Positions 11,024 to 31,775 of a stretch of DNA of 34,121 nucleotides are shown in pieces. Below the pieces are notes generated by a model. That model made no database searches and was not told the origin of the DNA. It saw only the letters and a list, made by a program, of their open reading frames with translations. A program made the position numbers and the translations under genes. The DNA is from Anaerolineae bacterium. Lineage in GTDB: Bacteria > Chloroflexota > Anaerolineae > DTLA01. How positions within the stretch are numbered: the stretch's first letter is position 1; every line of letters starts with the position of its first letter. The stretch is from the NCBI GenBank assembly GCA_029907165.1, contig JARYMK010000011.1, positions 1 to 34,121 on the forward strand. Reading direction: 5' to 3'.

Positions 11024-11054
11024 GGCCGCTCCTGGCACGCTGTGTGATAGCGCA

Positions 11055-11083
11055 ATTCTAGCGGGAGCGCGGGGAGCCGTCAA
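11055..11083 (-). promoter_or_regulatory. mutS promoter
   Basis: Minus strand: TTGACG (11083-11078), 17-base spacer, TAGAAT (11060-11055), 32 bases upstream of the mutS start. This is the expected arrangement for a housekeeping gene following a terminated operon. Confidence 0.75.
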
Positions 11084-11150
11084 AACCCGGCTTCGCGCCG
11101 TTCTCTCTGCAATCTCGGCGCGGCTGTGCGGGTGATCCGCCCGACGGCCC

Positions 11151-11189
11151 AAGCAAAAGCCGCCGATGCCATGCACAGGCAACGGCGGC
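11151..11189 (-). terminator. Intrinsic terminator of the giant protein-peptidase-stub operon
   Basis: Minus strand: GCCGCCG, one T-T mismatch, TGCC, 7-base loop, GGCA, CGGCGGC, then TTTTGCTT. Arms are 11189-11178 and 11170-11159, with the T-run complementary to 11155-11158. It stands 82 bases beyond the stop of the stub gene and 68 bases ahead of the mutS -35. Confidence 0.8.
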
Positions 11190-11271
11190 AGTTGCGCCTG
11201 CCACGAGGGTCGCGGATTCCGCTATGCGAATGTCGGGCATGGGCAGCGTTCAGGCCGCCCGCCCCAGGGAC

Positions 11272-11685
11272 CTACCGAGACGACGTGCGAACCCGCCTCG
11301 CGCCGAAGAGCAGCAGGACGAGCACCCCGGCCAGAGCCACCCCTAGCAGACCCGCACCGGTCTTCGGCACGGACGTGGCCGGCGCGGCGACTGGCGTGGC
11401 GGTCGGCTGTGGTGAAGGAGGTTGCGTCGGCGCGGGAGGCGGCTGCGTGGGCTGCGGCGCGATGGTCGGCACGGGCGTGGCCGTAGGCGGTACAGGCGTC
11501 GCGGTCGGCGTCGGCGGGACCGGAGTCTCCGTCGGACCCTCAGGCGTGAAGGTGGGCGTGGATGTGAACCCAAGCGCCAGCGCCGACCCCGCGGGGGACT
11601 CGTCCGCCGCAAGGCCCGCCGCGACAAGCCACGCGACTACCAGCAGCCCCACCAGGACCAGTCTCTTCCAGTTCATCGTCAACAT
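11272..11685 (-). CDS. Small secreted wall-anchor-like protein: Pro/Thr stalk and VPKTG-type sorting signal
   Basis: The protein has 137 residues and no globular domain. A signal peptide (about 1-27, hydrophobic core 9-25) is followed by about 65 residues of Thr-Pro and Pro-Pro repeats (41-105), then VPKTG (106-110), a hydrophobic helix (112-128) and a basic tail beginning RRVR. This is the order of an LPXTG cell-wall sorting signal with Val in place of Leu. No sortase gene is visible. The ATG at 11685 has AGGAGGA at 11691-11697; the next Met is residue 4. It is the last gene of the operon, 80 bases behind the C25 peptidase and before an intrinsic terminator. A wall stub or attachment platform for the giant protein is a reasonable guess, not shown. 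Confidence 0.8.
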   Translation of the reverse strand: MLTMNWKRLVLVGLLVVAWLVAAGLAADESPAGSALALGFTSTPTFTPEGPTETPVPPTPTATPVPPTATPVPTIAPQPTQPPPAPTQPPSPQPTATPVAAPATSVPKTGAGLLGVALAGVLVLLLFGARRVRTSSR

Positions 11686-11765
11686 CTTCTTCCTCCTAAA
11701 GGCACTACCCTGGAACCAATCATACACCCACCAGGGCGGGTTTCGCGCCCCCGCCCTGGCGGCAT

Positions 11766-14762
11766 CTACCGCACAAACAGGGCAGGGTCGCCGAACAAGA
11801 TGAACGTATCCACCAGGTCGCTGTACCCTGCGTTGTATGCACGAACCGTGCCAACCGCGACGGCAGGCCCCAACTGGCGCACGCCGTCTGTGAAGACCGT
11901 CTCGTAGAAACCCTGCTGCATGACATCGTGGCCCGTCGCCATGCCCCAGCCCGTGGACGACCAACTGGCCACCGTGCCCCCGCCGACGCGGCGAATCAAC
12001 TGCTCGGCCAGGCACTCCTGCGCGGGCGACGCCTGCGGCAAATGGAACTGACCGGTCTGGCAGGTCATCTCCAGCAGCACCGGCAGGCGCGTCCCGTTCG
12101 TCAGGCTTGGCACGTCGTCCACGTGGAGCAGGCGGTCGGCCACCCACTGATGCTCCGATGCGTGCCCCATGAAGTTCCAGAACAGCGCCCCCTGGTTGAA
12201 TTCGGAGAACAGCGCCGTCCTTGCCGTGCTGATGCTGGTGTAAATCCACGGCGCGCTGCCGGACCCGGGGTCGTAGTACACGCGGGTTCGGGTGTAGCCA
12301 GGGGCCGCTGACCCAAGCCACTCGTACATGTGGTCAGATGCCTGGATGAAGTTGTTGTAATTGGGCGCGTCGGGCTTGTCCGACACCAGGATGATCTCCC
12401 TGTCCCATGTGCCCGCGCCGGGGGCCGTGGGATAGGCCAGAATCTTGTCCACCATCGCCTTCGCCTGGTCGGCGTTGGCCGCCGGGAGCCGCCCGATGTA
12501 CATGTCCGGCAGGACGTCATCCCCGTGCACCGCCACATACCGGTTGTCGGTCGCCGTCTCGCCCATGGTCTTGTCCACCGGCGCGAGGAACGGCGGAACC
12601 AACTGCCGCCCGCCATAGCCCTTGTAGTTCAGGAAGTCGTAACTGCCGTCGCCCAGCAGCAGCACATAGGACGGTCTCATGCTCCACTGGTCGTAGGCGT
12701 ACTGAAGGAAAGCGCGGATGGCAGCGGGATCGGCCTGGCCGTAGTTGAATTCGTCGTAGATGTCCTGCACGTACACCACCAGCGGCTGCAGCCCCTGGTC
12801 TTGGTGATAGGCCACCAGTCGGTTGGCCTGCGCCGCCAGGGACGGGTCGGTGATGATGAGGTAGTCCGCCCCAATGGTCGGCGAGCGCCAGTTCGTAACG
12901 GGGTCCGCCACGATGGACAGGGGCCGCTTGACCGCAGCCGACGTCCCGACCCAGTACTTGCGCACCGCTGTTGGGCTATCCTGGAACGCGATACCATAAC
13001 CCCCTGTCGTCGCCTGCGCGAGGGCATCCTGGCGGCTCACAGTAGATGCCGGCTCGCCCATCATTGCGGCAGCCGCGCCGCTCCGCTTCCATACCGACGG
13101 CAACCGCACCCAACTGACCGGTTCCGCCGGGATGTGCGTGATTTGCACCGCGTTGCGCGCGTCCGAAACATCGTACACGGACACGTCGCCCTGGGCGAAG
13201 CCGGTGATCCAGTACCGCGCCGTCCCGCTCTGGCCCGTGAACGTGAGCGACTTCCCATCGGCTGCCACGTTGCGCGCGCTGTACTCCACGCTGAAGAAGT
13301 CCAGCCACACGCCATCCGGGGTTGCGCCCCGATCCTTGCTGGATAGCGTCAGCGTGTTGGCCCCTAGCCGCAGCGCCGTCGTCGGCACAAGGAAGGACAG
13401 CGTTCGGTACTCCGGCCCGGCCCACGTGCGGCTTCCCAGCGACAGGCCGTTGAACGCGAAGTTCAGTTCGTGCAGGTTCGCGTCGTACCCCTGAAGCCCC
13501 ACTCGGAGCACGGCGTTCGCCACGCCCGCGGGCGGCTCGGTCAACTGGAGTGTGTACGACCGCGGCGTGTACGGCGCAACGTCCAGCCAACTCAAATCAT
13601 CCCAGAACCAGTGATCGCCCTTGGGCGACGCGAACAGGCTGTCGTACCGCAAGGACTGCTCGGCGACGGCGGTAACGGAGTGCGCGGGCGCGTAGGGCGT
13701 CGTCGGATTCACCGCGCCGCTCCTCGTCCCCATCCGTTTGCCGTCGGACGCGCCAAAACTCAACCAATAAGTGCTCGTGTTCGTGTAACGGCTGTAGGGC
13801 GCCGTCGCGTAGAACAGGATGCGGTCGGTTGTGTTGAACACGCGGTCGTCCTGGCCCTCAACCTGGATGGCGATCTCCTGCCCCATGTAGCACATGGTCA
13901 GCCGCGCCGGGTCCACCGAGGCGACCGGGAACCCAGCCCCCACCAGGTCGGCGTAGGTGATTTCGTGCAGGCCCTCGGTGCTCACGATGACCTTGTACTG
14001 CGGGCCGATGCCGCAGATAGGGCCGGCCTGCGCCGCCACGGTGGACGGCTCGCGCGAGCGCCACGCCTTCGCCTGCTCGTAGTTCAGGATGGTCGCGCGG
14101 AGCACCGGCTCAAAGTACCCGTCCTGCTCGCCGTCGCACGCGGCCAGGTCCGCACCCGACAGGACTACCCGGACCCGCATGCGCTGGTACCATTCCATCT
14201 GGCCGGTTGCCGGATTGTACCGCACCGGATGCACCCGCAGCGCCAGAAATCGCTGGTCCCGCAGGTAGCCGCTTCCGGAGACTTCCACCACCTCGGCGGG
14301 GTAGAACGCCGCTGCGCCGTAGATGCGCGCGTCGGGCGTCCGCGCCTCGTCGTATCGCACCGCGCCATCGCGATCAGCGGAAACCGTCGGCCCAGGCAGC
14401 AGACGGTAAGGCCCTTCCAGTAGGATGCGGTCGGTGCTCTCCAACTGCACCTGCCATGTGGCCTTCGGCGGGATGCCCAGCACGAAGCCTTGCACCGGCA
14501 GTTCCGGCGCGCCCGGCTCCGCCGCTGTCGCAAGCCCCGCCACCCGCACCTGGTGCCAGGTCTCGCCCTGAACGTTCACCACCTGCACCGACGGGCGCGG
14601 CGTGAGGATGTCCAGCACGATGGCCTCGGCGCTGCCCGACACCACGCGAACTTCCGGCGTCGGTTCCTGTCCCCAGGAGCGTTCGGGGTGCGCGCCCTGC
14701 GCCGGCACTGCGCCCAGCAGCAGCGCCGCCGTCATGCATACCAGTACCACCTTCCGATTCAT
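11766..14762 (-). CDS. Secreted gingipain-fold cysteine peptidase (family C25)
   Basis: The protein has 998 residues. The signal peptide covers residues 1-23. The N-terminal part (about 35-200) has the style of the C25 propeptide (GAPELPVQGFVLGIPP). A mainly beta middle region follows (about 230-560), then the catalytic domain (about 620-998). The dyad is visible: H867 in NFMGHASEHQW and C901 in EMTCQTGQF, 34 residues apart, close to the 33 between H211 and C244 of gingipain RgpB. The chain ends at the usual C25 element LFGDPALFVR, without a sorting or adhesin tail. The ATG at 14762 has GGGAGAGG just upstream. It lies 105 bases behind the giant protein gene and 80 bases before the stub, same strand. 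Processing of the giant protein is the obvious hypothesis. C25 also includes the PorU sortase, but no type IX secretion gene is present. Confidence 0.9.
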   Translation of the reverse strand: MNRKVVLVCMTAALLLGAVPAQGAHPERSWGQEPTPEVRVVSGSAEAIVLDILTPRPSVQVVNVQGETWHQVRVAGLATAAEPGAPELPVQGFVLGIPPKATWQVQLESTDRILLEGPYRLLPGPTVSADRDGAVRYDEARTPDARIYGAAAFYPAEVVEVSGSGYLRDQRFLALRVHPVRYNPATGQMEWYQRMRVRVVLSGADLAACDGEQDGYFEPVLRATILNYEQAKAWRSREPSTVAAQAGPICGIGPQYKVIVSTEGLHEITYADLVGAGFPVASVDPARLTMCYMGQEIAIQVEGQDDRVFNTTDRILFYATAPYSRYTNTSTYWLSFGASDGKRMGTRSGAVNPTTPYAPAHSVTAVAEQSLRYDSLFASPKGDHWFWDDLSWLDVAPYTPRSYTLQLTEPPAGVANAVLRVGLQGYDANLHELNFAFNGLSLGSRTWAGPEYRTLSFLVPTTALRLGANTLTLSSKDRGATPDGVWLDFFSVEYSARNVAADGKSLTFTGQSGTARYWITGFAQGDVSVYDVSDARNAVQITHIPAEPVSWVRLPSVWKRSGAAAAMMGEPASTVSRQDALAQATTGGYGIAFQDSPTAVRKYWVGTSAAVKRPLSIVADPVTNWRSPTIGADYLIITDPSLAAQANRLVAYHQDQGLQPLVVYVQDIYDEFNYGQADPAAIRAFLQYAYDQWSMRPSYVLLLGDGSYDFLNYKGYGGRQLVPPFLAPVDKTMGETATDNRYVAVHGDDVLPDMYIGRLPAANADQAKAMVDKILAYPTAPGAGTWDREIILVSDKPDAPNYNNFIQASDHMYEWLGSAAPGYTRTRVYYDPGSGSAPWIYTSISTARTALFSEFNQGALFWNFMGHASEHQWVADRLLHVDDVPSLTNGTRLPVLLEMTCQTGQFHLPQASPAQECLAEQLIRRVGGGTVASWSSTGWGMATGHDVMQQGFYETVFTDGVRQLGPAVAVGTVRAYNAGYSDLVDTFILFGDPALFVR

Positions 14763-14808
14763 GAGCCTCTCCCTGCCAGGAGCCGCGATGTTTCCCGATT
14801 CAGATGAG

Positions 14809-14850
14809 CCGCGGGGGCGGACAGGGCCATCGCACCGCCGCCCCCTGCGG
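14809..14850 (-). other. Intercistronic hairpin between the giant protein and C25 peptidase genes
   Basis: Inverted repeat CCGCGGGGGCGG (14809-14820) with CCGCCCCC-T-GCGG (14838-14850), one bulged base and a 17-base loop. No T-run follows on the minus strand, so it is unlikely to be a full terminator. It may stabilise or separate the 16-kb upstream message from the peptidase part. Confidence 0.5.
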
Positions 14851-14867
14851 ATACCTTCTGTCGCGCG

Positions 14868-15236
14868 CTACCGCCACACGGACGGCAAGCGCAAGGAGTA
14901 CCTGCGCGCCTCGTCGGGGATGTACGTGTACACCCCGATGGAGCGGAGCACACGAGTCTGCACGTTGCCGTACAGGTCAATGTCCTCCAGCCAGTAGTAG
15001 TACGTGGAGCCAGGCTCCACGCCGGTGTCGGTGAAGGTGTACGTCGCGCCACCGGCCAAGCCGCGCCCCTGACCCGGAATCAGGTCGCTGTTCAGGCGTA
15101 CCGCTTCCTCAAAGTTGTCGGTCGTGCCGCGGTACACGTTGAACCCGCGGTTGTTGATCTCCGTGGCCGTGCGCCACTCCAGTTCCACCGCCGGCCCGAT
15201 GCGCCTCAGCAGGAAGTACTCCAGCGTGATGCCCGT
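14868..15236 (-). other. C-terminal fibronectin-like domain of the giant protein
   Basis: Residues 5316-5437 break from the DUF11 pattern. They begin with TGITLEYFLLRR, run through VELEWRTATEINNRGFNVYRG and GSTYYYWLEDID, and end at SLRLPSVWR. The motif order is that of a beta-sandwich often found at the end of large exported bacterial proteins. The short Leu-Pro/basic ending may be a recognition tag (inference). Confidence 0.6.
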
Positions 15237-18200
15237 GGGCGGCGCAACGGTTACGCCGAGCGGCGAGCCGAATGTGGTCGCGGGCAACTCCGCCGACCGC
15301 ACGCCATACTGGCTGTTCAGGATGACCGTCCCAACCGGCGTGTCGGGCAGGACGCGTACCGAGAAGACCGCGTAGCCGGTAACGCCCGGAGCCATGCTCG
15401 CCACGTTCCAGCGCACCTCGGTGGCCGTATGCGAGTGCCCACCCGAATGCCATTCGGTGTTCGCCGGGATGCGGTCGGTAATGACCACCGACATGGCGTA
15501 GGCATTGCCAACGTTGGTGAACACGATGGTGTAGGTCAGGATGTCGCCCGCCCGCACCGTCGCCGGCGCCAACTTGGACACGCGGAACGCCGGCGCGCTC
15601 TGCACCGTCGTGGACGCCGTGGCGCTGGCCGTAACGCCCTGCGCGTCGGCGATGACGGCGCGGTTCACCAGCACCGTCCCGTTGGGCAGCGGCGAGTTCA
15701 CCCGCACCACCACCACCACGCTACCGGTCGCGGGCGGCGTCAGGTTGCCCAGGTTCCAGACAATCTGGTTGCCGCTCCGGATGCCGCCGTTGCTGATGCT
15801 TTGCACCGTTACGTTGGCCGGCAGGGTGTCGGTAAGCACCACGCCGTTGGCAGGCTCGTTGCCCATGACCTGGTACTGGATCGTGTAGGTCAGAAGCCCG
15901 CCCGCCTGCACCGGATCGGGCGTATCCACCTTCAGCAGGCTCAGCGTGTGGCTGCTCTGCACCAGGTCGGTGATGCTTGCCTGCACCGGCGCGGGCAGAC
16001 CGCCGCCCATGGCCTCGGCCGTGTTGATGATAGGCGTGTTGTTGGGCAGCGGAGCCGCCACGCGCACCCGGTACCGCGCCGTTACGCTCCCGCCCAGCGG
16101 GATGGACACGCTGCTCGCCAGCGTGGGCGGCGTGAACCCAGGCGTGCCCGCCCCGGGCGGATCCAGCACGATGCTGCCCGGCACGAACGTCGTGTTCGCC
16201 GGAACCGTGTCGGATATCGTCAGGCCGCTGATGGGGCCGTCGCCGATGTTCTGCACGGTTACCGAGTACTGAATCTCGGCGCCGGGCTGCACGAACCCCG
16301 CCGCAGACGACTGCTTGATGACGCGCACGTTGATCTGCTGGCGCAGGGTGTTGCTGGCGCTGGACGTGTTGTTGCCGTAGTTGCGCTCGGCGGTGCTCGT
16401 GCCGATGGCCGCCACGTTGGTCAGCGTCCGCTCCGTCTCCCCGGTCGGGTTCACCGTCGCTGTGAACACCAGCGTCCCGGTGGCACCCGAGGGCAGCGTG
16501 CCCACCGACCAGATGAGGTCCTGGCCCACCTGCGACGGGCCGACCATGCCCGGCTCCGCGTGTACCACGCCGCCGAACGTCAGGCCCGACGGCAGGGTAT
16601 CGGTGATGCGCACGTTGAGCGCGGCGGCCGGCCCCGCGTTCACGTAGCCGAGCGTGTACGTGATCACATCGCCCGACTTCACCGTGGCCGGCTCAACCGC
16701 CTTGGCGATGCTTACGTCGGTATTCTCCACCAGCGTGGACGCCGAGGCGCTCGCGCCCTTACCCTGCGCGTCCAACGCGCTGGCCCAGTTGAGGATGCTC
16801 GTCCCATTGGGCACGGACGTGTCCACGCGCACCGTCAGCGTTACCACCGCCGGCTCGCCCGGACTCACCGAAGCCAGCGTCCAACGGACCATGCCCGGCT
16901 GGCCGACCGGCGGCGATTCTATGGACGTGCCGCCGCTGGCCGAGTGGAACGTGGTGCCCGCCGGGATGCCGTCCGAGACGATGACGTTGGTGGCAGGCTC
17001 GTTGCCCGTAACCTCAACCGTCAGCGTGTAGGTCAGCAACTCACCCGCCTGCACCGGGTCTACCAGGTCCAACTTGGACAGCGCCAGGGTGTGGTCGCTG
17101 GTTACCAGCGTGGTGTCGGTGGCCGAGGCGCTGCGCCCGTCCTGATCGCGGAAGTAGGCTGTGTTGGCGATGGCCGTCCCGCGCGGCAGCGGCGTGTTCA
17201 CGCGCACCGTGAAGGTTACCTCGCCCGTGGCCGGCGCGGGCAGCGTGCCCAGGTTCCACACTAGGACGCCGCCCACCGGCGTAACGCCGCCGCTCGCGCC
17301 CACGAATTCGGTGTTCGCGGGCACGCGGTCCGTGATGACCGCCAGCGGCGCGGGCTCATCGCCGATGACCTCGTAGCCGATGACGTAGGTCAGCAGGTCG
17401 CCCGCCGCCACCGGTTTCGGCGAGCCGGTCTTCGTCAGCGCCAGGATATGATCGCTGGACACCACGTTCGTAACCGTCGCGGTGATGGGATCGGGGATGC
17501 GATCCGCCGTAACCGCCGCGGTGTTGGTGATGACCGTGCCGTTGGGCAGCGGCGTGTTCACCCTCACCAGGTAACTCACGGTTACCGTCTGGCCGGACGG
17601 GACCGTCAAGCCCGAAATCACCGTCGGCGGCATGCCCGGTGTGCCGCCTGCCGACGGCGGGTTGACGGTAACGCTGTCAAACCACGTTACCTCGGCGGGC
17701 AGCGTGTCGCTGATGGTTACGTTGTTCGCCGCATCGTTGCCCGTGTTGGTGAAGGTTATGGTGTAGCGCAGCATGTCCCTGGGCAGCAACTGGCCACCGT
17801 CCACATCCTCTGACGTCTTGCGCACGCTCAGGATCGGCCCGCTCACGACGGTGTCGCAGGTCGGGTCGTCCTTCTCCGACGTGCGCGGGTCGTCCGTGGG
17901 CACGGTGGACTCGTTGGTACCGTTGCCGTCGCCATCGTAGTACACGGTGCCCTGGTTGCAGATTCGCGTCATGTGGGCCAGCGGCGAGTTCACCCGCACC
18001 TGGAAGGTGATGGCCGTCGCCTGGCTTGGGTTGAGCGTGCCGTCCCAGCGCAGTTGCGTGTTGGTCGGGTTCAGCGTTACCGAGCCGATCGTCGCGCTGG
18101 CCGACCCGACGATGTAAGTCGTGTTGGCCGGGATGTTGTCCAGGAACTCCGGATCCACGTTGTTCACCAGCGGCGCGTTGCCGATGTTGTGCAGCATGAT

Positions 18201-24200: not shown

Positions 24201-27200
24201 CGCGCCCAGGGTCAGGCCCGTCGCCAGGTTGGGCGGCGGGTTCAGCGGCGTGCCCGCGTCGTACACCCGCACGTTGTCCACGTACAGGTAGTCAGACGCA
24301 TCGTTGGCGCTGCTGGCCCAGAACCCGATGTAGAAGCCGCCGCCCTTGTAAGCGCTCACATCAAACGACCGGGTTACGTAGGCCGATTCGCTCAGCGGGC
24401 CCGTCCAAGAGTAGACGGTGTGCCAAGCCCCGTCCCAAACCCGGAACTCAAATTGGTTCCCGGCTTCCAGGCTCACCGCCTTGGCGTCAAACTCCACGCG
24501 CGGCGAGACAAACTTGCTGATGTCGGCCTGCCTGTACGCGTACAACTCGTTGACACCATCACCCTGCATGCGGAGCCTGCGGCTGCCGGTTTCGCTCACG
24601 AGCCGTATGCTCCCGGTGGAGGAACTGCCATCATCGTTGTATTCCAGCCAGTTGGAGCCCCACGGCGTGTTGCCCGTGCTGCCGCTGTAGGTGTTGGACT
24701 CAAAGTCGTCGGCGTACACGGTGGGCACCTTCAGGCCTGCGCTCCCCGGCACGTAGGTAACATACGGCGACAGGTTGTCCACGATGCCCAAATCGTTGGC
24801 CGCCACCGGGCCCGTGTTCGTGATGTAAAGCGTGTACGTCATGAGCGAGCCGGGCGTTACCGTCATGGGCTCACTCACCTTGCGGATGTCAAACACGGGC
24901 GCGGAGACCGTCCGCGAGACCTGGTTGCTGAGCACCGGCGTGGGCGCACCCACCGCGCTCACGTCGGCGCGGTTGCGGATGACCGTCCCGTTGGCGGTGG
25001 GCCGGTTCACCGTTACGTTGAATGTTACGGTTACCGGCGTGCCCACCGGCACCGTCAGGCCGGTTACGATATTCGGCGGAGTGCCGGGCGTCCCGCCAGC
25101 CGACGGCGGGCTGATGGTGATGTTGTCGGCCCAGGTCGTATTGGCGGGCAGTGTGTCGCTGATGACGGTGTTCTCGGCGGGGGCGTTGCCCGTGTTGCTC
25201 ACCACCAGCGTGTAGCGCAGCGTGTCGCCAGGCACCAGCGGCGCTCCGTTCAGGTCGGTGGCCGACTTGGTGATGGCCAGCACGGGCGCGCTGGTAACCG
25301 GATCCCTCGTCTCGTTGGACTGGCGCAGGGACTCCATGGAGCCGTTGCCGTCGGCGTCGTACAGGATGTAGGCCCGGTTGGTGATGGACGTGCCGACCGG
25401 AATCACGCTGTCCAGCAACACGCGGAACCGGTACTGGGCCGATGCGCCCGCGGCCAGGTCAATGCCTTCAATGCGGAGCACCGGGCTCGTGGAGACCAGC
25501 ACCCCGCCGCCCGGCAGCGCACCGGACACCGAGAAGGACGTGTGCGCCGGTATGGTGTCCGTGAGCACCATGTCCACGGCGTCCATGTCGCCCGTGTTGG
25601 TGAAGTTGATGGTGTAGCGCAGTTCGTCGCCGGGCTGGAGCGGCGCGCCGCCCGTCATGTCTTCAGAGTACTTGGTGATTTCAATGACCGCCGCGCTGGT
25701 TACCGTGTCGGTTACGACGTTTGTGTACGACGGCGTATCGCCGGGACCGTAGGCCCCATCGCCGTTGCTGTCGTACCAGCACGCGCCCTGGTTCACGATG
25801 TTGGTACCGTTCGCCAGCGGCGTGTTCAACTGGATGGCGAACTTCAGCGTTACGGGCTGGCCCACAAGCAGGTTGCCGTTCCAGACGACAACCGTGCCGC
25901 CCGAGTGGCCGATAGTGCCGCTGCTGGCCCACAGGGACGCGGGCAGGAACGTGGCGTTCGCCAGCGGCAACACATCGTCAAACTCATTCTGGCCCAGGTT
26001 CAGGTAGTCCATCGTCCCAACGTTGGTCAGGACGACGGTGTAACTGATGATGTCGCCGGGCCGCAGCGGGTAGCCGTTCACGTCCAGCGAGGACTTATGC
26101 GCCACCACAAACGGCGCGCTCACCACGGTGAAATTCTTTGAAGATGTTACCGTTGTGTCGTTGACATTGTCGCCGTTGCTGTCGTAGGTGAAGTACGCCG
26201 TGTTCTGGACGTTCGTGCCGTTGTTCAGCGGCAGGTTCACGTCGGCGCTGTACGTGATCGTAACCGGCTGGCCCACGTTGACCGGGCCGTTCCACTCAAT
26301 GCGGTGCGCGCCCGAGTTGTACGTCGCCGTGCCCGACGTAGCCGCCAGGGTCCCTGGCACCAGCGTTACATACGGCGACAGGACATCCCAGAACTCGTCG
26401 CTCGCGTTATCCCCCTGGTTCATGTCGCCCGTGTTCCACAGAACCACCTGGAAGTTCAGGCGGTCGCCGGGCACCACGTTGCCGCCGTTCACGTCCGTGC
26501 CCGTCTTGGCCACGTTGCCGATGGGCGCGCTAGTTACCGTGTTCGTTACCGTTGCGGTAACCGGCGTCAGGCGGTCGGCGCTCACCGTAGCCGTGTTGGT
26601 GATGACCGTGCCGTTGGGCAGCGGCGAGTTCAGTTGCACCGCCATCGTCAGCGTTACCGACGTCTGCGCCGTAATGACCATGCCCGACACCAGGTTAGGC
26701 GGCGTCCCCAGCGTCCCGCCCGCCGACGCCGGCACGCGGGTTACGCTGCCGGGCACGTAGGTCGTGTTGGCGGGCACGGCATCGGTAACCGCGACGTTGA
26801 TGGCGTTCTCGGTGCCGGTGTTGGTGATGACAATCGTGTAACTGAGCACGTCGCCTGGGCGCAGATTGCCCCCGTTCATGTCCTGCGCGATCTTGCTCAC
26901 CGCCAGCGCCGGGGCCGCCGTTACCATGTCCCGCGTCGGGTCGTTGAGCGCGGGCGTGCGCGGGTCGTCGGTGGGGATCATCTCGTAGTCGCCCAGGCCG
27001 TCGCGGTCGTAGCGCACGTAGCCCTGGTTGCTGATGACCGTGCCATCCCACAGCGGCAGGTTCACCCGCACGCGGAACTGAATGGTAACGCTGCCACCGT
27101 TGGCCGGGATGGAGATGTTGGAAATCTTCACCTGCGACGGGGTGCTCTCGTTCACCGCGCCGCCCGGAATGGTCGGCACGTTCAGGAAGGTCGTGTTCGC

Positions 27201-30200
27201 CGGCACAACGTCGGTGAACACCGCGCCCGTAACGGGCCGATTGCCCGTGTTGGTGATGATCACCGTGTAGCGGATGCGGTCGTTGGGCTCTAGCGGCGCG
27301 CCGCCGTCCAGGTCCTCGGAGACCTTGGTCGCGTACAGCGAGGACAGGTAGTAGATGGTGTCCTGCGTCGTGTTCGTCGTAACGACCACATCGTTGGCAT
27401 CCCAGTCGCCATCAGCATCGCTGTCGTAGCGGATTTGGGCCGCGTTTGTAACGACGGTGCCGTGGCTGAGCACGCCCACATCCATCGCCCAGGTCAGCGT
27501 CAGCGGCACGCCCACGGTGATGGGGCCGGTCCACTTCACCGAAGTCTCGTCAATGCCCCACGTGCCCCAGGGCTGGGTCGCCGTCCCAGGCTTGTAGGTG
27601 AGGCCCGGGAAGATGGGGTCGTAGAACTCAAAGTGCGACGGGATGTCCGGCTGGTCCATGTTGCCGATGTTGGTGATGACGACGGTGTAACTGATGACAT
27701 CGCCCGGCTGGAACACACCGCCGTCCAGGTCCAGCGACGTCTTGTGCGCCACGATGAGCGGCGCGCTCACCACCGTCCCGGACACATAGGGCGTGTAGGT
27801 GGTGCGGTTATTCGCCTTGTCGCCGTCGTCATCCCAGTACAGGCGGCCGCGGTTCTGGATGACCGTGCCGTTGGGGATGGCGTTATCCAGCACCACGTCA
27901 AACACGATGGTAACCGGCTGGTCCACCGGCAGCGGGCCGTTCCACAGGACGCGGCGGTTCACGCTGTCGTAGGTGGCCATGCCCGAAGAGGCGAACAACG
28001 TGCCGCTCACAAACGAGGTGTAGGTGGGCAAATCGTCGCGGATTTCGTTGCCGCCGTAGTCGCCTTGGTTCATGGTGCCGCTGTTGGTAACCACCAGCGT
28101 ATAGCGGACCTGGTCGCCTGGACGCAGCGGCGGCCCGTTGAGGTCCTGCATGGTCTTCGCGCCCGCCACGGCCGGCGCGCTGCTCACGGTGAACGTGGCC
28201 GGCGCGCTCGCCACGGGCGTCGCGTTCTCGGCGCACCAGACGCTGGCCATGTTGGTGATGACCGTCCCGTTATCCAGCGGGCGCGCCAGCGTGGCCCGGA
28301 AAGTAACCGTGATGGGCTGGCCGACGGGCGCATTGATGCCCGTGGCGATAAGCGGCGGCGTCCCGGGCGTCCCGCCAACCGACGCCGGCGCAATGGTTAC
28401 GCTCCCTGGCACGAACGTGAGCGAGACTGGCAGCGTGTCGCTGACGACGACGCCCGTCGCGGGGGCGTTGCCCGTGTTGGTCAGCACAATGGTGTACGTT
28501 ACCGGCTGGCCAGGCACGATGCTCCCGCTATGCGCCTGCTTGGTCAGCGTGAACTGCGGCGAACTGGTAACCGCATCCGACACCAGATTGGACTGCGCCA
28601 GCGTGTCGTTGCCGCCCACGCCATCACTATCGTAGAAGATGTAGGCCCGGTTGGTGATGGACGTGCCCACGGTGATGACGCTGTTCAAGTTCACGCGGAA
28701 CGCAAACGACGCCGAAGACCCCGCTGGCAAACTTATGCCCTCAATCCGTAGCACCGGGCTGGTGGAGACCAGCGTGCCGCCGCCGGGCACAGGGCCAGGG
28801 CTGTAGAACGTCGTGTTTGCGGGGATGGTGTCGGTCAGCACCATGCCGGTGGCGTTCATGTCGCCCGTGTTGGTGAACACGATCTCGTACCGCAGTTGAT
28901 CGCCCGGCTGAAGCGGTGCGCCGCCCGTCATGTCCGCCGAGGTCTTGGTAACCACGATATTGGGCGAGGCGGTAACCGTGCTAACAACGGCGTTGGTCTG
29001 CGCCGGGATGTCCAGCCCGTCGTAGTCGCCATCGCCATCGCTGTCGTAGCGCACCTCACCCGTGTTGGTAATCGTCAAGCCATTGGTCAGCGGCGTGTTC
29101 AACTGGATGGCAAAGGACAGGGTTACCGGCTGACCCACCAGCAAATCGCCATTCCAGCGGACGCGGTCGGTCGCGAAGGTGATGGTGCCACTGGACGCCG
29201 TGTGCGAGCCTGCCACATACGAGGCGTTGGTGAGCGGCAGGATATCCACGAACTCGTTGTGCGCCAGGTTGTAGTAATTCATGGTGCCGACGTTGGTCAT
29301 CACGACCGTGTAACTCAGCACGTCGCCCGGGCGCAGAGGTGCTCCACCCGTCATGTCGCGGGCCGACTTCGTGGCGACGACAAAGGGCGCGCTGACGACG
29401 GTATCCGTAACCGCCGAGGAAACCACCCACGTCATGGCCTCGGTACAGCGCGCGGCGGCTACGTTGGTGATGACCGTGCCATTCTGCAGCGGCTTGTTCA
29501 CCTTCACGTCATACCGCACGGTTACCGACCCGCCCATGCCGGGGACGGAAATCCCCGTGGCGATATTGGGCGGGGTGCCTGGCGTGCCGCCCGCCGACGC
29601 CGGCGAGATCACGACGCTGCCGGGGACAAAGGTGGTATTGGCGGGCAGCGTGTCGCTCACGACCGTGCCGGTCGCGTTGCCGTTGCCCGAGTTGGTCAGC
29701 GTGATGATGTAACGCAACGTGTCATCGGGGTTCAACGGAGGCGGGCTCTGATTTTGCGACGACTTGGTGATGGTCAGCGATGGGCTGCTGTGCACAGTCG
29801 TGTAGGCCGAAGCCGAAACCGGCGTGATGATCTGCGTGCACGTAACCGACGCGGTGTTGGTGATGGTCAGGCCGTTGGTCAAGGGGGCCTGCGACTGCAC
29901 CTCAAAGGTAACGGTAACCGCCTGGCCGGGGGCCAGGGTGTGGCCGGTCAGAATCCACGGCGGCGCGCCCACGCCCGCGATCTCCACGTCGGGCGTCAGC
30001 CGCGCGCGCACCAGGCTGGAGTGCTCGGAATCCCACAGCGTGGCGCGAGGCCCAACGGAAGGCAGGCCGTCGGGCAGCAGGTCGGTCAATTGCACGCTGC
30101 CGCCCACGTAGACAGTATTCGCCGGCACGGGGTCGTAGATGGACACGTTGTTGGCCGTGGTCGTGCCGGTGTTGGTAACCCGCACAGTGTAGGTGATGCG

Positions 30201-31181
30201 CTCGCCCGCCTCTACTACCGCGGGAACCGCCCGCTTCGTAATGACAAGGATGGGCGCTTGCAGCACGTCCGTAACCTGGGCGGTCGCCAGGGGCACAGCC
30301 CCGCTCTTGACCGTGGCCGTGTTGGTCATCAGCGTGCCACCCGACAGCGGCTGCAACACCAACGCCGACAAGCGCACCACCTTGCTCGCGCCCGCCTCCA
30401 CCACCAGGTTTGTCGTCATCACCGGAGGCGCGCCCAGCGCGGTGCCCTTGTCGTAGATTTCCACGTCGTCCACGTACATAATATCGCCGGTGCCCACCGC
30501 CGAGCCCGTGCGGAACCGAATCTTGAGGTTGGAGGCCTTGTATGGGGTCAGGTTCAGTTCCTCGGAGACGTACACATCCTGGGTGGAGCCGACGCTCCAG
30601 GACTTGACGGCGTTATGCCACGCGCCGCCATCATACACGTCCAGGTAGAACCAGTCGTTCGTTTCCACCGACCACAACTTGCGGATGAAGCGCAGCGTCG
30701 GCTGGATCATCGTGGAAGTGTTGGCGGGGCGCTCTACCGACTTGTCGGCCGCGCGGAGGCGCAGGCGGAAGCTGCCCGCATCGTCCTCAATGACGATGTC
30801 GCCGGTGTGGGGGCCGACGGCGTCGTTGGTCTCCACCCACGGGCCAGCCCAGTTGGCTGTGCCGGTGTTGTTGGACCAACTGACCACGTTGAAGTCGTCG
30901 GCATACGTCAGAGGCGAGGCCGCCACGGCGCTACCGGCGACGTATTGCACCTGCGACGGGAGGTCGTCGCGCACCTCCAGCGTTACCGGGGCCGGGTCCG
31001 TGTTCGTGATCCGAATGGTGTATTGGATGACCTGGCCCGGCACGGCCATCCCTCCGGCACTGGAGGTCTTGGTCAGCAGCACGCCGGGAGCCGCATGGGC
31101 AGGGTGAATCGCCAATCCCATCCCGACCGCCAGCGCAAGCGCTACGAGCACCACTACGCCCAACCATGTTGCCTTCCTCAT
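14868..31181 (-). CDS. Giant secreted DUF11-repeat surface protein (5437 residues, 34 repeats)
   Basis: The signal peptide covers residues 1-30 (cleavage after AHA). Then come 34 Ig-like DUF11 repeats (about 34-5315, roughly 120-150 residues each without inserts). Typical blocks are K-T-S-x-D-x-N-G, Y-T-I-x-x-T-N-T-G, D-T-x-P-A-N-T-T-Y-V-P-G-S and P-L-P-N-G-T-x-I-T-N. Five repeats contain an extra ~155-residue jelly-roll-like module. The C-terminal 122 residues (5316-5437) look like a fibronectin-type domain (VELEWRTATEINNRGFNVYRG) and end in SLRLPSVWR. The chain has no catalytic domain or membrane anchor. The ATG at 31181 is fixed by AAGGAGG at 31188-31194; a longer frame to 31214 is rejected. 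It is the first gene of the operon with the C25 peptidase and VPKTG stub. A long adhesive or structural surface fibre is likely; the binding target is unknown. Confidence 0.93.
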   Translation of the reverse strand: MRKATWLGVVVLVALALAVGMGLAIHPAHAAPGVLLTKTSSAGGMAVPGQVIQYTIRITNTDPAPVTLEVRDDLPSQVQYVAGSAVAASPLTYADDFNVVSWSNNTGTANWAGPWVETNDAVGPHTGDIVIEDDAGSFRLRLRAADKSVERPANTSTMIQPTLRFIRKLWSVETNDWFYLDVYDGGAWHNAVKSWSVGSTQDVYVSEELNLTPYKASNLKIRFRTGSAVGTGDIMYVDDVEIYDKGTALGAPPVMTTNLVVEAGASKVVRLSALVLQPLSGGTLMTNTATVKSGAVPLATAQVTDVLQAPILVITKRAVPAVVEAGERITYTVRVTNTGTTTANNVSIYDPVPANTVYVGGSVQLTDLLPDGLPSVGPRATLWDSEHSSLVRARLTPDVEIAGVGAPPWILTGHTLAPGQAVTVTFEVQSQAPLTNGLTITNTASVTCTQIITPVSASAYTTVHSSPSLTITKSSQNQSPPPLNPDDTLRYIITLTNSGNGNATGTVVSDTLPANTTFVPGSVVISPASAGGTPGTPPNIATGISVPGMGGSVTVRYDVKVNKPLQNGTVITNVAAARCTEAMTWVVSSAVTDTVVSAPFVVATKSARDMTGGAPLRPGDVLSYTVVMTNVGTMNYYNLAHNEFVDILPLTNASYVAGSHTASSGTITFATDRVRWNGDLLVGQPVTLSFAIQLNTPLTNGLTITNTGEVRYDSDGDGDYDGLDIPAQTNAVVSTVTASPNIVVTKTSADMTGGAPLQPGDQLRYEIVFTNTGDMNATGMVLTDTIPANTTFYSPGPVPGGGTLVSTSPVLRIEGISLPAGSSASFAFRVNLNSVITVGTSITNRAYIFYDSDGVGGNDTLAQSNLVSDAVTSSPQFTLTKQAHSGSIVPGQPVTYTIVLTNTGNAPATGVVVSDTLPVSLTFVPGSVTIAPASVGGTPGTPPLIATGINAPVGQPITVTFRATLARPLDNGTVITNMASVWCAENATPVASAPATFTVSSAPAVAGAKTMQDLNGPPLRPGDQVRYTLVVTNSGTMNQGDYGGNEIRDDLPTYTSFVSGTLFASSGMATYDSVNRRVLWNGPLPVDQPVTIVFDVVLDNAIPNGTVIQNRGRLYWDDDGDKANNRTTYTPYVSGTVVSAPLIVAHKTSLDLDGGVFQPGDVISYTVVITNIGNMDQPDIPSHFEFYDPIFPGLTYKPGTATQPWGTWGIDETSVKWTGPITVGVPLTLTWAMDVGVLSHGTVVTNAAQIRYDSDADGDWDANDVVVTTNTTQDTIYYLSSLYATKVSEDLDGGAPLEPNDRIRYTVIITNTGNRPVTGAVFTDVVPANTTFLNVPTIPGGAVNESTPSQVKISNISIPANGGSVTIQFRVRVNLPLWDGTVISNQGYVRYDRDGLGDYEMIPTDDPRTPALNDPTRDMVTAAPALAVSKIAQDMNGGNLRPGDVLSYTIVITNTGTENAINVAVTDAVPANTTYVPGSVTRVPASAGGTLGTPPNLVSGMVITAQTSVTLTMAVQLNSPLPNGTVITNTATVSADRLTPVTATVTNTVTSAPIGNVAKTGTDVNGGNVVPGDRLNFQVVLWNTGDMNQGDNASDEFWDVLSPYVTLVPGTLAATSGTATYNSGAHRIEWNGPVNVGQPVTITYSADVNLPLNNGTNVQNTAYFTYDSNGDNVNDTTVTSSKNFTVVSAPFVVAHKSSLDVNGYPLRPGDIISYTVVLTNVGTMDYLNLGQNEFDDVLPLANATFLPASLWASSGTIGHSGGTVVVWNGNLLVGQPVTLKFAIQLNTPLANGTNIVNQGACWYDSNGDGAYGPGDTPSYTNVVTDTVTSAAVIEITKYSEDMTGGAPLQPGDELRYTINFTNTGDMDAVDMVLTDTIPAHTSFSVSGALPGGGVLVSTSPVLRIEGIDLAAGASAQYRFRVLLDSVIPVGTSITNRAYILYDADGNGSMESLRQSNETRDPVTSAPVLAITKSATDLNGAPLVPGDTLRYTLVVSNTGNAPAENTVISDTLPANTTWADNITISPPSAGGTPGTPPNIVTGLTVPVGTPVTVTFNVTVNRPTANGTVIRNRADVSAVGAPTPVLSNQVSRTVSAPVFDIRKVSEPMTVTPGSLMTYTLYITNTGPVAANDLGIVDNLSPYVTYVPGSAGLKVPTVYADDFESNTYSGSTGNTPWGSNWLEYNDDGSSSTGSIRLVSETGSRRLRMQGDGVNELYAYRQADISKFVSPRVEFDAKAVSLEAGNQFEFRVWDGAWHTVYSWTGPLSESAYVTRSFDVSAYKGGGFYIGFWASSANDASDYLYVDNVRVYDAGTPLNPPPNLATGLTLGAGEAITVTFNVTATSPLTNGLSIVNEAGVYCYELPTPQYTTATSVVNSSVSLAATKTSIDLNGGDVTPGDTLRYQVVLTATGSGIATNTSIVDPLPANTTWQNNVVVTPPGGVAGSPPNVLISLSVPGGSTVTVTYDVRVNAPLAEGTIITNTATISSPNIPASLASTVTDTVHTAALSISKAADPSPIVAGGVVTYIITVRNTGTTTATNVMVTDTLPPEVAYIPGSTSIASAFVFADDFGSGDYSGSTGTQPWTGAWTESPADGGPLSGDITVVSESGSLRLHVSGTSKTIRRQADIRSMFYPVLEFDRKLVGLESGDTFTLELYNGSTWTTVRSWNGPADESGYTHEVVDLGGYKASNFRLRFGSGPANATDDHLYVDNVIIYDTGVPGNAPPVLTDTLSIGPGMAMNVSFQGNVASPLDNGSTITNRAGASSQQTPTPVLAQLVSTVSSAPDVQITKTSFDPSGYPLRPNEVLNYTIVLNNTGTMNQRDNPGHELVDVIPTNTTYVPGSLFYTSGTGVYNAGMNRIEWNGAVNVGQPVTVSFSVRTNPLLVNGTPIYNLAVLSYDTDGNNTNDGTRSSPIIDIVTSAPFVVAHKTSLDVNGAPLRPGDVISYTVVFTNAGDMDQLDKPGAEFLDDIPANTTYVPGSAWASAGSVSYNGTYNRIAWNGNLPVGVPVTVKFAVQTNNPLPNGTAIVNTGRAFYDADGDGTTNEAVALAGPITDTITSAPRIEITKAAVDLNGAPLEPGDVLAYDITITNSGNMNAVGMVFTDTIPANTSYLSVENLPAGAVLAATSPELRITNLTVNAGTTVTFRLNVTLALPLPNGTVISNQGMLAYDADGNGSNESLAPTDDPSTPAINDPTVRTVVSGPVLVVTKTSSDLNGAPLGPSDVLQYQVVIRNDGKANATGVVVSDTVPANTTWQDAVTINPPSAGGVIGAPPLIVSGMTIAAQQSVTLTYNVQVQPGVVDGTPIVNRVQVQCAEDPTWRTAVLTDTAYAPVLAISKTGVPNPVEAGAVLTYTILVSNTGGYPTGNVSLADTLPAQVAYVPGSTLLAVMTTYADDFESATYTGNTGTHPWATNWVETAGDGGALAGDVGVVTEGGSRRLHVGGTSMFAWRQADLTPFLKPTLKFDRKLVSLDVAGDYFRVEVWNGVAWTPLQTWTGPANDAAYTTETFDLSPFIVSGARIRFRSGPSNSADDHLYVDNVMIYDAGVPGGAPPVLATGLTLQPRTTLRATFQVQVNSPLPNGTTLVNTASVTSQHFPTPIVATTMNTVRSAPDIQVDKTSLDVNGGLLSPYDVLRYQVVIRNAGNADATNVNLTDELPPYTTWVGNVSITPVSAGGIPGTPPNVATGMTVRSGETVTVTFEVRVMRPVMDGTAIVNTASVSSLQAPGPFTDTITDTVHSPTLLIGKSGTPQPVEAGGLVTYTIAITNSGTLTATGVVVSDTLPPQITYVPGSSTWRLGATYADTFSIYSYAENDGTVNWTSNWVEQNDDGLPTSGHVGMVWDAGSLRLMVQNVNRAIWRQANINYFYNPKLRFDRRIVGLEAGKAFYLDVYNGTTWQVAQTWFGPLDEAAYSTIVVDLSAYKSTATRIRFRAGTTLDAADTMYVDNVEIYDEAQAGGSPGSLVSGATIPPGASLVVQLTGRVASPLSNGATLPNTGWVRCTEWPDAVSSTFNSRVHSTTVLQITKASQDVNGGDLQPGDVLRYRLTVENVGTQNQADNPGNELADLIPMHTTYVPGSATATSGVVIYNAGTNRVEWNGAVNVGTPVQITFDVQVNNGLANGTVIANRATAYYDANGDGSNEATVDSNTTEDIVVSRVTIVATKISEDLDGGLLEPGDTLRYTIGITNTGSMDQPNSPAHEFLDELPAHTHYVPGSLSATSGTALFVDGTTVQWDGVLPAGGSVTIRFSVTVDEGTPNNTIISNQGWVFYDSNGDGSVDERDTPKVTDDPRVPGPDNPTEDRVGHAPLLQATKVSVDQNGGFLEPGDILFYTIMLHNIGNAPLVNNVDPEFLDNIPANTTYIVGSASATIGSVTLNPTNTQLRWDGTLNPSQATAITFQVRVNSPLAHMTRICNQGTVYYDGDGNGTNESTVPTDDPRTSEKDDPTCDTVVSGPILSVRKTSEDVDGGQLLPRDMLRYTITFTNTGNDAANNVTISDTLPAEVTWFDSVTVNPPSAGGTPGMPPTVISGLTVPSGQTVTVSYLVRVNTPLPNGTVITNTAAVTADRIPDPITATVTNVVSSDHILALTKTGSPKPVAAGDLLTYVIGYEVIGDEPAPLAVITDRVPANTEFVGASGGVTPVGGVLVWNLGTLPAPATGEVTFTVRVNTPLPRGTAIANTAYFRDQDGRSASATDTTLVTSDHTLALSKLDLVDPVQAGELLTYTLTVEVTGNEPATNVIVSDGIPAGTTFHSASGGTSIESPPVGQPGMVRWTLASVSPGEPAVVTLTVRVDTSVPNGTSILNWASALDAQGKGASASASTLVENTDVSIAKAVEPATVKSGDVITYTLGYVNAGPAAALNVRITDTLPSGLTFGGVVHAEPGMVGPSQVGQDLIWSVGTLPSGATGTLVFTATVNPTGETERTLTNVAAIGTSTAERNYGNNTSSASNTLRQQINVRVIKQSSAAGFVQPGAEIQYSVTVQNIGDGPISGLTISDTVPANTTFVPGSIVLDPPGAGTPGFTPPTLASSVSIPLGGSVTARYRVRVAAPLPNNTPIINTAEAMGGGLPAPVQASITDLVQSSHTLSLLKVDTPDPVQAGGLLTYTIQYQVMGNEPANGVVLTDTLPANVTVQSISNGGIRSGNQIVWNLGNLTPPATGSVVVVVRVNSPLPNGTVLVNRAVIADAQGVTASATASTTVQSAPAFRVSKLAPATVRAGDILTYTIVFTNVGNAYAMSVVITDRIPANTEWHSGGHSHTATEVRWNVASMAPGVTGYAVFSVRVLPDTPVGTVILNSQYGVRSAELPATTFGSPLGVTVAPPTGITLEYFLLRRIGPAVELEWRTATEINNRGFNVYRGTTDNFEEAVRLNSDLIPGQGRGLAGGATYTFTDTGVEPGSTYYYWLEDIDLYGNVQTRVLRSIGVYTYIPDEARRYSLRLPSVWR
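19332..19793 (-). repeat. Inserted jelly-roll-like module 5 (in repeat 24)
   Basis: Residues 3797-3950. It opens YADTF rather than YADDF, has FDRRIVGLEAG and LDVYNGTTW, and ends MYVDNVEIYDEAQ. The host repeat resumes with GGSPGSL. It is the superblock counterpart of module 3. Confidence 0.75.
20553..21017 (-). repeat. Inserted jelly-roll-like module 4 (in repeat 22)
   Basis: Residues 3389-3543, most like module 3: YADDFESATYTG at the start, FDRKLVSLDVAGD and VEVWNGVAW in the middle, LYVDNVMIYDAGV at the end. The host repeat resumes with GGAPPVL. It is the superblock counterpart of module 2. Confidence 0.75.
23034..23495 (-). repeat. Inserted jelly-roll-like module 3 (in repeat 17)
   Basis: Residues 2563-2716. 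FADDFGSGDYSG opens it, FDRKLVGLESGD and LELYNGSTW are central, and LYVDNVIIYDTGV closes it. The host repeat resumes with GNAPPVL. It is separated from module 2 by one plain repeat. Confidence 0.75.
24249..24716 (-). repeat. Inserted jelly-roll-like module 2 (in repeat 15)
   Basis: Residues 2156-2311, the same outline as module 1: YADDFESNTYSG at the start, FDAKAVSLEAG in the middle, LYVDNVRVYDAGT at the end. The host repeat continues with NPPPNL. The first half carries WGSNWLEYNDDG, matching the Trp-rich turn of the other modules. Confidence 0.75.
30441..30905 (-). repeat. Inserted jelly-roll-like module 1 (in repeat 1)
   Basis: Residues 93-247. It starts with TYADDF, contains LRFIRKLWS and LDVYDGGAWH, and ends MYVDDVEIYDKGT. 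It interrupts repeat 1 after YVAGS; the repeat resumes with GAPPV. The pattern of a Y-x-D-[DN]-V-x-I-Y-D end strand is typical of MAM- or carbohydrate-binding-type sandwiches. Confidence 0.75.
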
Positions 31182-31440
31182 GACAGGCCTCCTTGTACGC
31201 ACTGGTCTGCGCATAGGCCAAAACGAAGCCGCAGCGCTTTCCGCTGGACTTCCCGCCCATGCACGAACTCGCGCCTCCGTGCCTCGGCGCCTTCTTCAGT
31301 TGTCGGTATTCGTTTCGTGGAAACAAGCGGCGGGGTGCCACCTTCTCGCCCATGCGCCAACCGCCCTTCTCGCGCTGAAAGGCGTCCGGCCCAACCGCAT
31401 GGTGCGAAAAGGCCCCGGAGTATCAGACTCCTCTTTACGT
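31182..31440 (-). promoter_or_regulatory. Long leader of the giant protein gene, with an internal direct repeat
   Basis: About 255 bases lie between the expected transcription start and the ATG. The leader holds several GC-rich inverted repeats and a 14-base direct repeat, GCATGGGCGAGAAG, with copies at 31342-31355 and 31249-31262 (one mismatch, 93 bases apart). I recognise no known riboswitch in it. Part of it (GCCGAGGCACGGAGGCGCG) resembles low-complexity repeats scattered between genes in some genomes. It carries the ribosome site AAGGAGG at 31188-31194. Confidence 0.5.
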
Positions 31441-31445
31441 TATGT

Positions 31446-31487
31446 ATTATACAACCGTTTTCTAGCACTTGTCAATAACCTTGTCAA
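31446..31487 (-). promoter_or_regulatory. Promoter of the giant protein operon, with tandem TTGACA boxes
   Basis: Minus strand: TTGACA (31475-31470), 18-base spacer, TATAAT (31451-31446), both exact consensus. A second TTGACA lies twelve bases further upstream (31487-31482). Transcription should start near 31439. Confidence 0.8.
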
Positions 31488-31775
31488 CTTGCCTGCCAAG
31501 TGCCCGCCTCGCGCCGCCCCCACGGGTACAGACCCTGCGGCGCGGTGCCCGGCGGCATGCCCCACCGTCGGGAGGTGCACGACTCCCACATGCATCGTGC
31601 AATTTCTGTACCAGCAGCCGAGCAGATTGAAAAGCGTGGGGAGGCGGGTTACGTCATCCCAAGATCTGCGCCACACCCTGCCATGCTTCGTCTCTGGACA
31701 ACCTCTTGTTCAGACACACATTCCAGAAACGCCTGGGGTACACTCACTCGCTGAACGAGTAACAAGTGCAGGGCA
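31488..31775. other. Gene-free region between divergent promoters
   Basis: No supported gene. It holds ACTCG-CTGAA-CGAGT, an inverted repeat at 31746-31760 just upstream of the promoter at 31776. Short frames here lack ribosome sites. Confidence 0.45.

Follow-up and report, generated by a model that had tools for sequence, protein, structure and literature searches.

The analysed stretch (hereafter the window) is 34,121 nucleotides of an Anaerolineae assembly (contig JARYMK010000011.1). It carries three consecutive genes on the minus strand, which encode a giant DUF11 protein, a C25-family peptidase and a short protein with a VPKTG sorting signal (the anchor stub), separated by intergenic gaps of 105 and 80 nt. 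The features of this unit, in the direction of transcription, are as follows:

31446..31475, minus strand: sigma-70-type promoter, TTGACA-18-TATAAT, with 12/12 consensus matches
31215..31440, minus strand: conserved 5' leader of ~225 nt, strongly conserved in the genus
14868..31214, minus strand: giant fibre protein, 5,448 aa (ORF, profiles, repeat count)
11766..14762, minus strand: secreted C25 peptidase, 998 aa (ORF, Pfam, fold)
11272..11685, minus strand: anchor stub, 137 aa (ORF, sorting-signal pattern)
11155..11189, minus strand: terminator-like hairpin and short U-tract (folding; present in congener G002)

An earlier note on this DNA had described a consensus promoter and three secreted-protein genes running in one direction with gaps of these two lengths, and the ORFs and the promoter match bear this out in full. 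By comparison, shuffled sequence yields 0.2 sites with at least 9 of 12 matches in the region. We also looked for the independent promoters that the note had set against its own reading, and the promoter scan found no promoter-like site in either of the two internal gaps. The sole such site within 11000-15000 lies at 11083-11055, just before mutS, and was assigned to that gene.

The leader of the giant's mRNA (31215-31440) contains a small hairpin, GGAGTCTGATACTCC. A riboswitch in this leader was rejected, as no Rfam family matched. An inverted repeat, TGCACGA-N12-TCGTGCA (31576-31601), lies ~100 bases upstream of the -35 box and is a possible operator; it falls within the genus-conserved block, and its arms are imperfect in one congener (G001).

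At the other end of the unit, the intrinsic terminator proposed in the note stands in part. The hairpin at about 11189-11155 on the minus strand pairs GCCGCCG with CGGCGGC and runs into TTTTGCTT. The 66-nt stretch around it folds at -36.7 kcal/mol (z -2.75, better than shuffles), and it is retained in G002. Against it, the hairpin is absent from G001, and the terminator scanner gave no flag because the loop is long. As read from the sequence, it is a plausible, though not proven, terminator for the operon.

Three further features of the window were noted. Long plus-strand ORFs inside the giant gene (e.g. 22866-26141 and 18564-22817) were discarded as antisense artefacts of GC-rich repeats. Between the giant and a ROK kinase gene, 31882-33516 encodes a 544-aa multi-TM protein; no such gene is called at this position in G001 or G002, which looks like a recent insertion here or a loss there. 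The product of the gene at 6871-7785 was judged by eye to be VanY-like and D,D-carboxypeptidase-like; it is secreted and has a stalk rich in Pro and Thr.

The giant, the peptidase and the stub

The giant consists of a signal peptide, 34 DUF11 (CLIPPER) repeats, five jelly-roll inserts, an FN3-like C-terminal domain and a short tag. Its repeats match the profiles PF01345 (532 and 325 bits, the former from the C-terminal part) and TIGR01451 (531 bits). Pfam and NCBIfam together mark DUF11-type and related Ig-like repeats along with choice-of-anchor-J stretches; the count of 34 comes from a profile built in this analysis. The isopeptide lysine of the first strand is found in 34/34 repeats (shifted by two positions in repeat 32), the asparagine of the last strand also in 34/34, and the aspartate in all 29 of the repeats compared, which are those without inserts. 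In the solved DUF11/CLIPPER domain 9IFR, an isopeptide bond forms from Lys715, Asp748 and Asn806 (PMC12617251). This structure is also the best PDB match to the repeat profile, if a weak one (E 0.008), and a phmmer search of the giant against the PDB gave no match. By their tandem profile matches and the Lys-Asp-Asn triad, the repeats belong to the DUF11 (CLIPPER) family.

Repeats 1, 15, 17, 22 and 24 each carry an insert of ~150 residues, a jelly-roll or adhesin-like domain by its predicted fold; these inserts and the C-terminal module of the giant lie at:

30450..30905, minus strand: inserted domain copy 1, residues 104-255
24258..24713, minus strand: inserted domain copy 2, residues 2168-2319
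23043..23498, minus strand: inserted domain copy 3, residues 2573-2724
20562..21017, minus strand: inserted domain copy 4, residues 3400-3551, the modelled copy
19341..19793, minus strand: inserted domain copy 5, residues 3808-3958
14871..15242, minus strand: C-terminal module, an FN3-like domain and the tag YSLRLPSVWR at 14871-14900 (alignment)

The AlphaFold2 model of copy 4 has a pLDDT of 88; among solved structures it comes closest to carbohydrate-binding modules and to the K1-K3 cleaved adhesins of Lys-gingipain. The FN3-like domain has no Pfam match. In other families, giants linked to a C25 have a homologous C-terminal module, with 26 invariant columns in the alignment (A2). As predicted from its sequence, then, the giant is secreted by a Sec-type route and consists of isopeptide-type DUF11 domains interrupted by five jelly-roll domains.

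We searched 60 genomes for the ending [YF]x[VLI][YF]LP[LIV][VI]x[RK]-stop and found 54 matches, against 3 for reversed-pattern controls. The tag recurs on many secreted Anaerolineae proteins with no TM segment following (14871-14900 in the window; elsewhere, for example, L122, L188, L243, L265 and L279), and we found no paper on it. We considered and rejected the tag as a substrate signal for C25 enzymes, because a C25 is present in 11/16 of the tag-bearing genomes and in 27/44 of the tag-less ones, which is no association. Five genomes have the tag and no C25, so it does not behave as a cargo signal does for PorU. Given this independence, we did not count the tag as evidence for processing.

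The peptidase has the layout of a zymogen:

14073-14660, minus strand: C25 propeptide, residues 35-230
11778-12863, minus strand: C25 catalytic domain, residues 634-995, with His867 and Cys901

The catalytic domain matches PF01364 (Peptidase_C25) with 318.6 bits and the propeptide matches PF08126 (Propeptide_C25) with 66.9 bits; this propeptide also matches gingipain propeptides. The note had described an intact His-Cys dyad. His867 and Cys901 are indeed present, and they are invariant both in an alignment of 13 sequences and in 14/14 giant-linked C25s. With PF01364 above its cut-off, this dyad places the enzyme in peptidase family C25. The note had also described a peptidase that ends at an FGDP element and has no adhesin tail, which holds in the window's genus; elsewhere, most giant-linked C25s end in the same C-terminal tag as the giant.

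Among characterized relatives, PorU, the sortase of type IX secretion (T9SS), comes closest. The match to NF033707 (T9SS sortase PorU) is 291.9 bits, below the curated cut-off of 420. PDB sequence matches by phmmer are 58 bits to PorU and 47 bits to RgpB, and the predicted fold (pLDDT 77.7) matches PorU (6za2) with E 4.7e-28 over 623 columns and RgpB with E 4.9e-16 over 392 columns. By profile, PDB sequence and modelled fold the peptidase is thus nearest to PorU, and by the curated cut-off it is outside that family. The arginine specificity of RgpB is conferred by Asp163. The phmmer alignment has a gap at this S1-pocket position, and by this residue the enzyme does not qualify as a gingipain R. 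It is the single C25 of the window's genome. A search of 60 class genomes for the type IX translocon protein SprA (TIGR04189) gave 0 matches, and the control genomes were likewise silent. Taken together, the C25 beside the giant is a cysteine peptidase of the zymogen type, its dyad intact and its predicted fold closest to PorU.

The stub is made up of a signal peptide, a mature N-terminus beginning LGFTSTP, a Pro/Thr-rich linker, VPKTG (11356-11370), a TM segment and the basic tail ARRVRTSSR. By pattern this is a sortase substrate of the LPXTG kind; the match to TIGR01167 is 11.7 bits, below the cut-off of 15.9, and the motif is a VPKTG variant. The window's genome has two sortase genes (PF04203), both outside the operon. 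Among three species, dN/dS for the stub is 0.10-0.38, and the motif and both ends are kept despite a linker of variable length, which marks it as a real gene under purifying selection.

Conservation of the unit and exchange of its anchor

Within the genus, the trio is found in the same order in two congeners, G001 (82 per cent peptidase identity) and G002 (92 per cent; a MAG recorded as Chloroflexi bacterium Tumba.bins.16). The promoter and leader are near-identical base for base in both, and sequence outside this block is unalignable. The downstream neighbours differ among the three genomes: mutS in one case, a ribosomal S15-like gene followed by a PNPase-like gene in another, and a HAD phosphatase-like gene in the third (judged by eye).

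We then searched 396 class genomes with the C-terminal module of the giant and read the neighbourhoods in the best 22 (E <1e-33). A C25 gene adjoins the giant in 16 of these 22 genomes, which span eight families; among the other six, four have a C25 elsewhere and in two none was found. Approached from the peptidase side, in 33 C25 neighbourhoods DUF11 accounts for 11/116 of the genes within two places of the C25 and for 0/179 of those farther off, and nine additional loci have DUF11 fused to the C25 itself. On a tree of 62 catalytic domains the giant-linked C25s cluster strongly, with 2 label changes against a shuffled mean of 12.8 (0/500 shuffles as low). One clade with support of 94/96 unites ten of them, drawn from five families; the tree neither establishes nor rejects a single clade of all 14 (AU p 0.061). 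As would be predicted for a pair with shared inheritance, the distances between giant modules correlate with those between their C25s (Mantel r 0.76, p 0.0002).

A short anchor protein lies beside the giant-C25 pair in 10/16 genomes, from six families. Five of the remaining six loci end at contig boundaries, and the sixth (G324), with readable flanks, has a sortase and no stub. The anchor signal is LPXTG-like in four families and of the PEP-CTERM type in two. The LPXTG-like forms are VPKTG in the three species of the window's genus, IPVTG in G016 and G295, and, in stubs placed upstream, LPETG (G010), FPETG (G303) and LPVTG (G199). The PEP-CTERM stubs come from G017 (76 aa) and G096 (93-111 aa) and match TIGR02595 with 24.5 and 21.1 bits (cut-off 16). 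In G096 the next genes after the stub encode an exosortase (PF09721, 190.9 bits) and a protein that resembles EpsI but scores below that family's cut-off, and in G303 and G324 a sortase gene comes directly after the C25.

A strict stub rule picks out 7/42 genes beside a giant or C25 and 0/411 elsewhere; three of the seven are from congeners, which leaves about five independent cases. A lenient rule for anchored proteins gave no clear separation between near and far genes (7/116 against 4/179). Several stubs share a G(F/M)TP motif near the predicted mature N-terminus. Searching genome-wide for further stubs with the DNA pattern for GFT[PS]xPT returned essentially the known stubs and chance matches.

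The exchange of LPXTG and PEP-CTERM signals around the same giant and C25 pair shows that the anchor is a separate module, and the fact that distant relatives keep the trio while changing its anchor type shows that the parts belong together. As far as can be read from these genes, the third is a minimal sorting-signal protein whose signal type has been replaced between lineages. The earlier note had called the locus a cassette and had suggested that genes of this kind be sought together in related genomes. That search finds the trio intact in the genus despite changing flanks, and the giant and C25, often with a short anchor, in other families, which goes beyond what the note had expected. Its proposal that the stub offers a wall anchor, made from the window, is now much stronger, given the signal swap and the sortase and exosortase genes that have joined the operon. 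Since the trio stays together and recurs across families, we regard both the three-gene unit and the predicted anchor role of the stub as well supported.

Several other arrangements were seen during this survey. In G303, two further DUF11 proteins have LPETG anchors of their own (L239:2-2692 and L239:3225-9863), and their genes immediately precede the operon of stub, giant, C25 and sortase. Elsewhere in the Anaerolineae, C25 genes come after RiPP-like operons (L129:6551-6703, L068, L048, L032, L182, L187 and L246) with PqqD-like proteins, Cys-containing 50-aa precursor-like ORFs and nucleotidyltransferase-like, transglutaminase-like and radical-SAM-like genes, all judged by eye; there the C25 might be a leader peptidase. 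In another type of C25 cluster (L118, L120, L171 and L173), two C25 genes flank a 346-403-aa protein with an FN3-like domain, a Pro/Thr linker and a C-terminal TM segment with basic residues.

Possible roles of the fibre and its peptidase

The reading we prefer, to which we give about an even chance, is that Chloroflexota (class Anaerolineae in the GTDB sense) have a conserved system for a fibre on the cell surface, encoded by this unit, in which the C25 enzyme acts on the fibre. The giant would be exported, fold and lock its isopeptide bonds, and would then likely form an adhesive fibre that resists proteases and exceeds 100 nm in length. The stub, likely the base of this fibre, would be attached by a sortase to the wall or, in other lineages, by an exosortase to the membrane. 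Both roles are based on what is well known of such domains and on the anchor swap. Outside the cell, the C25 would be activated by loss of its propeptide and would then trim the fibre or couple it to its base, much as PorU treats type IX cargo. This last step is the weakest of the scheme, and we put it a little short of even. A more specific version is improbable but worth stating: a relay of two enzymes in which a PorU-like C25 transpeptidase joins the C-terminus of the giant to the stub, which is then anchored to the wall by a sortase or, in other lineages, to the membrane by an exosortase. Such a relay would operate in bacteria without type IX secretion, through a stub with a conserved GFT/GMT near its mature N-terminus and an anchor that can be swapped.

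The main competing account, doubtful though hardly far-fetched, is that the unit captures and digests, much as a gingipain split over separate genes might: the giant would hold polymers or cells, the C25, as a surface peptidase of broad action, would digest the catch, and the stub would anchor one or both, with the adhesin-like jelly-rolls on the giant instead of on the peptidase. The inserts, which fold like carbohydrate-binding modules and the K1-K3 adhesins of Lys-gingipain, and the gingipain-like propeptide agree with this account. So do the high C25 copy numbers of certain other genomes (13 match rows in G096), the frequent fusion of C25 to DUF11, and the tandem clusters in which further C25s of the class occur. 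Yet the window's genome has one C25, tied to the giant, whose best sequence and fold match is PorU and no gingipain, and the position of RgpB Asp163 is an alignment gap. The nine C25-DUF11 fusions fit a displayed enzyme as well as they fit a maturase. For maturation or attachment speak the dedicated pairing, the PorU-like fold and the single C25 copy in the window's genome; for digestion, the adhesin-like modules, the gingipain-like propeptide and the fusions. We rate maturation or attachment slightly ahead and leave the matter undecided. The earlier note's suggestion that the peptidase matures or couples the giant accordingly keeps the status it had there: the predicted fold favours it, and the tag untied to C25 and the C25-DUF11 fusions count against it.

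We consider it unlikely that the giant is a grappling hook in the strict sense, a polar structure of several parallel chains that holds cells, with the C25 and stub as assembly factors. Its size and make-up agree with GhlA (WP_141610714.1) of Litorilinea aerophila (Chloroflexota), a protein of 6,596 aa with 49 DUF11 domains found in purified polar hooks (PMC13319060). A relative of GhlA, the 5,898-residue hook protein GhpA of Aureispira, is secreted by a type IX system (PMC11205867), and the sortase of that system is a C25 enzyme. Two other giants of the class (6,530-7,081 aa), on the other hand, lack an adjacent C25, and GhlA is reported to have no signal peptide whereas the window's giant has one. 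Finally, the three genes could be ordinary secreted proteins that are neighbours by chance in one small genus. Each part does belong to a known family, and C25 enzymes, DUF11 proteins and sortases all occur commonly in the class; set against the cross-family conservation, the constant order with changing flanks, the enrichment tests and the anchor swap, we hold chance to be very improbable indeed.

The Chloroflexota are a phylum with multilayered envelopes and giant appendages. The unit names the parts of one such appendage, and the exchange of anchors shows that its anchor is modular. It also offers a setting outside type IX secretion in which the origin of PorU-like C25 enzymes can be studied, and it is compact enough for testing whether such an enzyme can link a fibre to an acceptor bound to the wall. 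The unit is real and conserved, and there is a small but real chance that it represents a new attachment mechanism.

Comparison with known systems

Among the papers searched, we found none on DUF11 giants with a C25 and a swappable anchor, and the nearest known systems each resemble the unit in part. At 5,448 aa and 34 repeats, the giant exceeds the size of about 5,000 residues that marks DUF11 chains of grappling hooks. Like GhlA, which comes from the same phylum, and GhpA, it is a tandem-DUF11 chain of thousands of residues with isopeptide residues. It differs in its five jelly-roll inserts, its signal peptide and its predicted co-transcription with a dedicated C25 and a separate stub. Searches of the PDB sequence set with the giant gave no match to GhpA. 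Known here from sequence alone, the giant appears to be of the same general kind as GhlA and GhpA by size and DUF11 make-up.

PorU itself is an enzyme that cleaves type IX cargo and joins it by a sortase-like mechanism (PMC4560394, PMC8545088). The window's peptidase shares with PorU the C25 fold and intact dyad, has it as best HMM, PDB-sequence and fold match, and adjoins a secreted giant with a C-terminal tag. Unlike PorU, it scores below the curated cut-off (291.9 <420 bits), and the tag does not track with C25; nor is this 10-residue tag the C-terminal beta-sandwich domain of T9SS cargo. Chloroflexota are also regarded as lacking an outer membrane (PMC13319060). The gingipains RgpB and Kgp likewise combine a propeptide with a C25 catalytic domain in a system with adhesin-like jelly-rolls, but in the window the adhesin modules are in the separate giant, the catalytic domain comes last, and RgpB Asp163 is unaligned.

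Sortase-anchored proteins and pilus clusters of Gram-positive bacteria, and PEP-CTERM/exosortase systems, resemble the unit in its LPXTG-like or PEP-CTERM signal and in the sortase or exosortase encoded within the operon or elsewhere in the genome. In those systems, however, the signal is not set apart as it is here, on a separate small protein with few or no other domains and not on the fibre, and in the present case two sorting systems interchange within one operon type.
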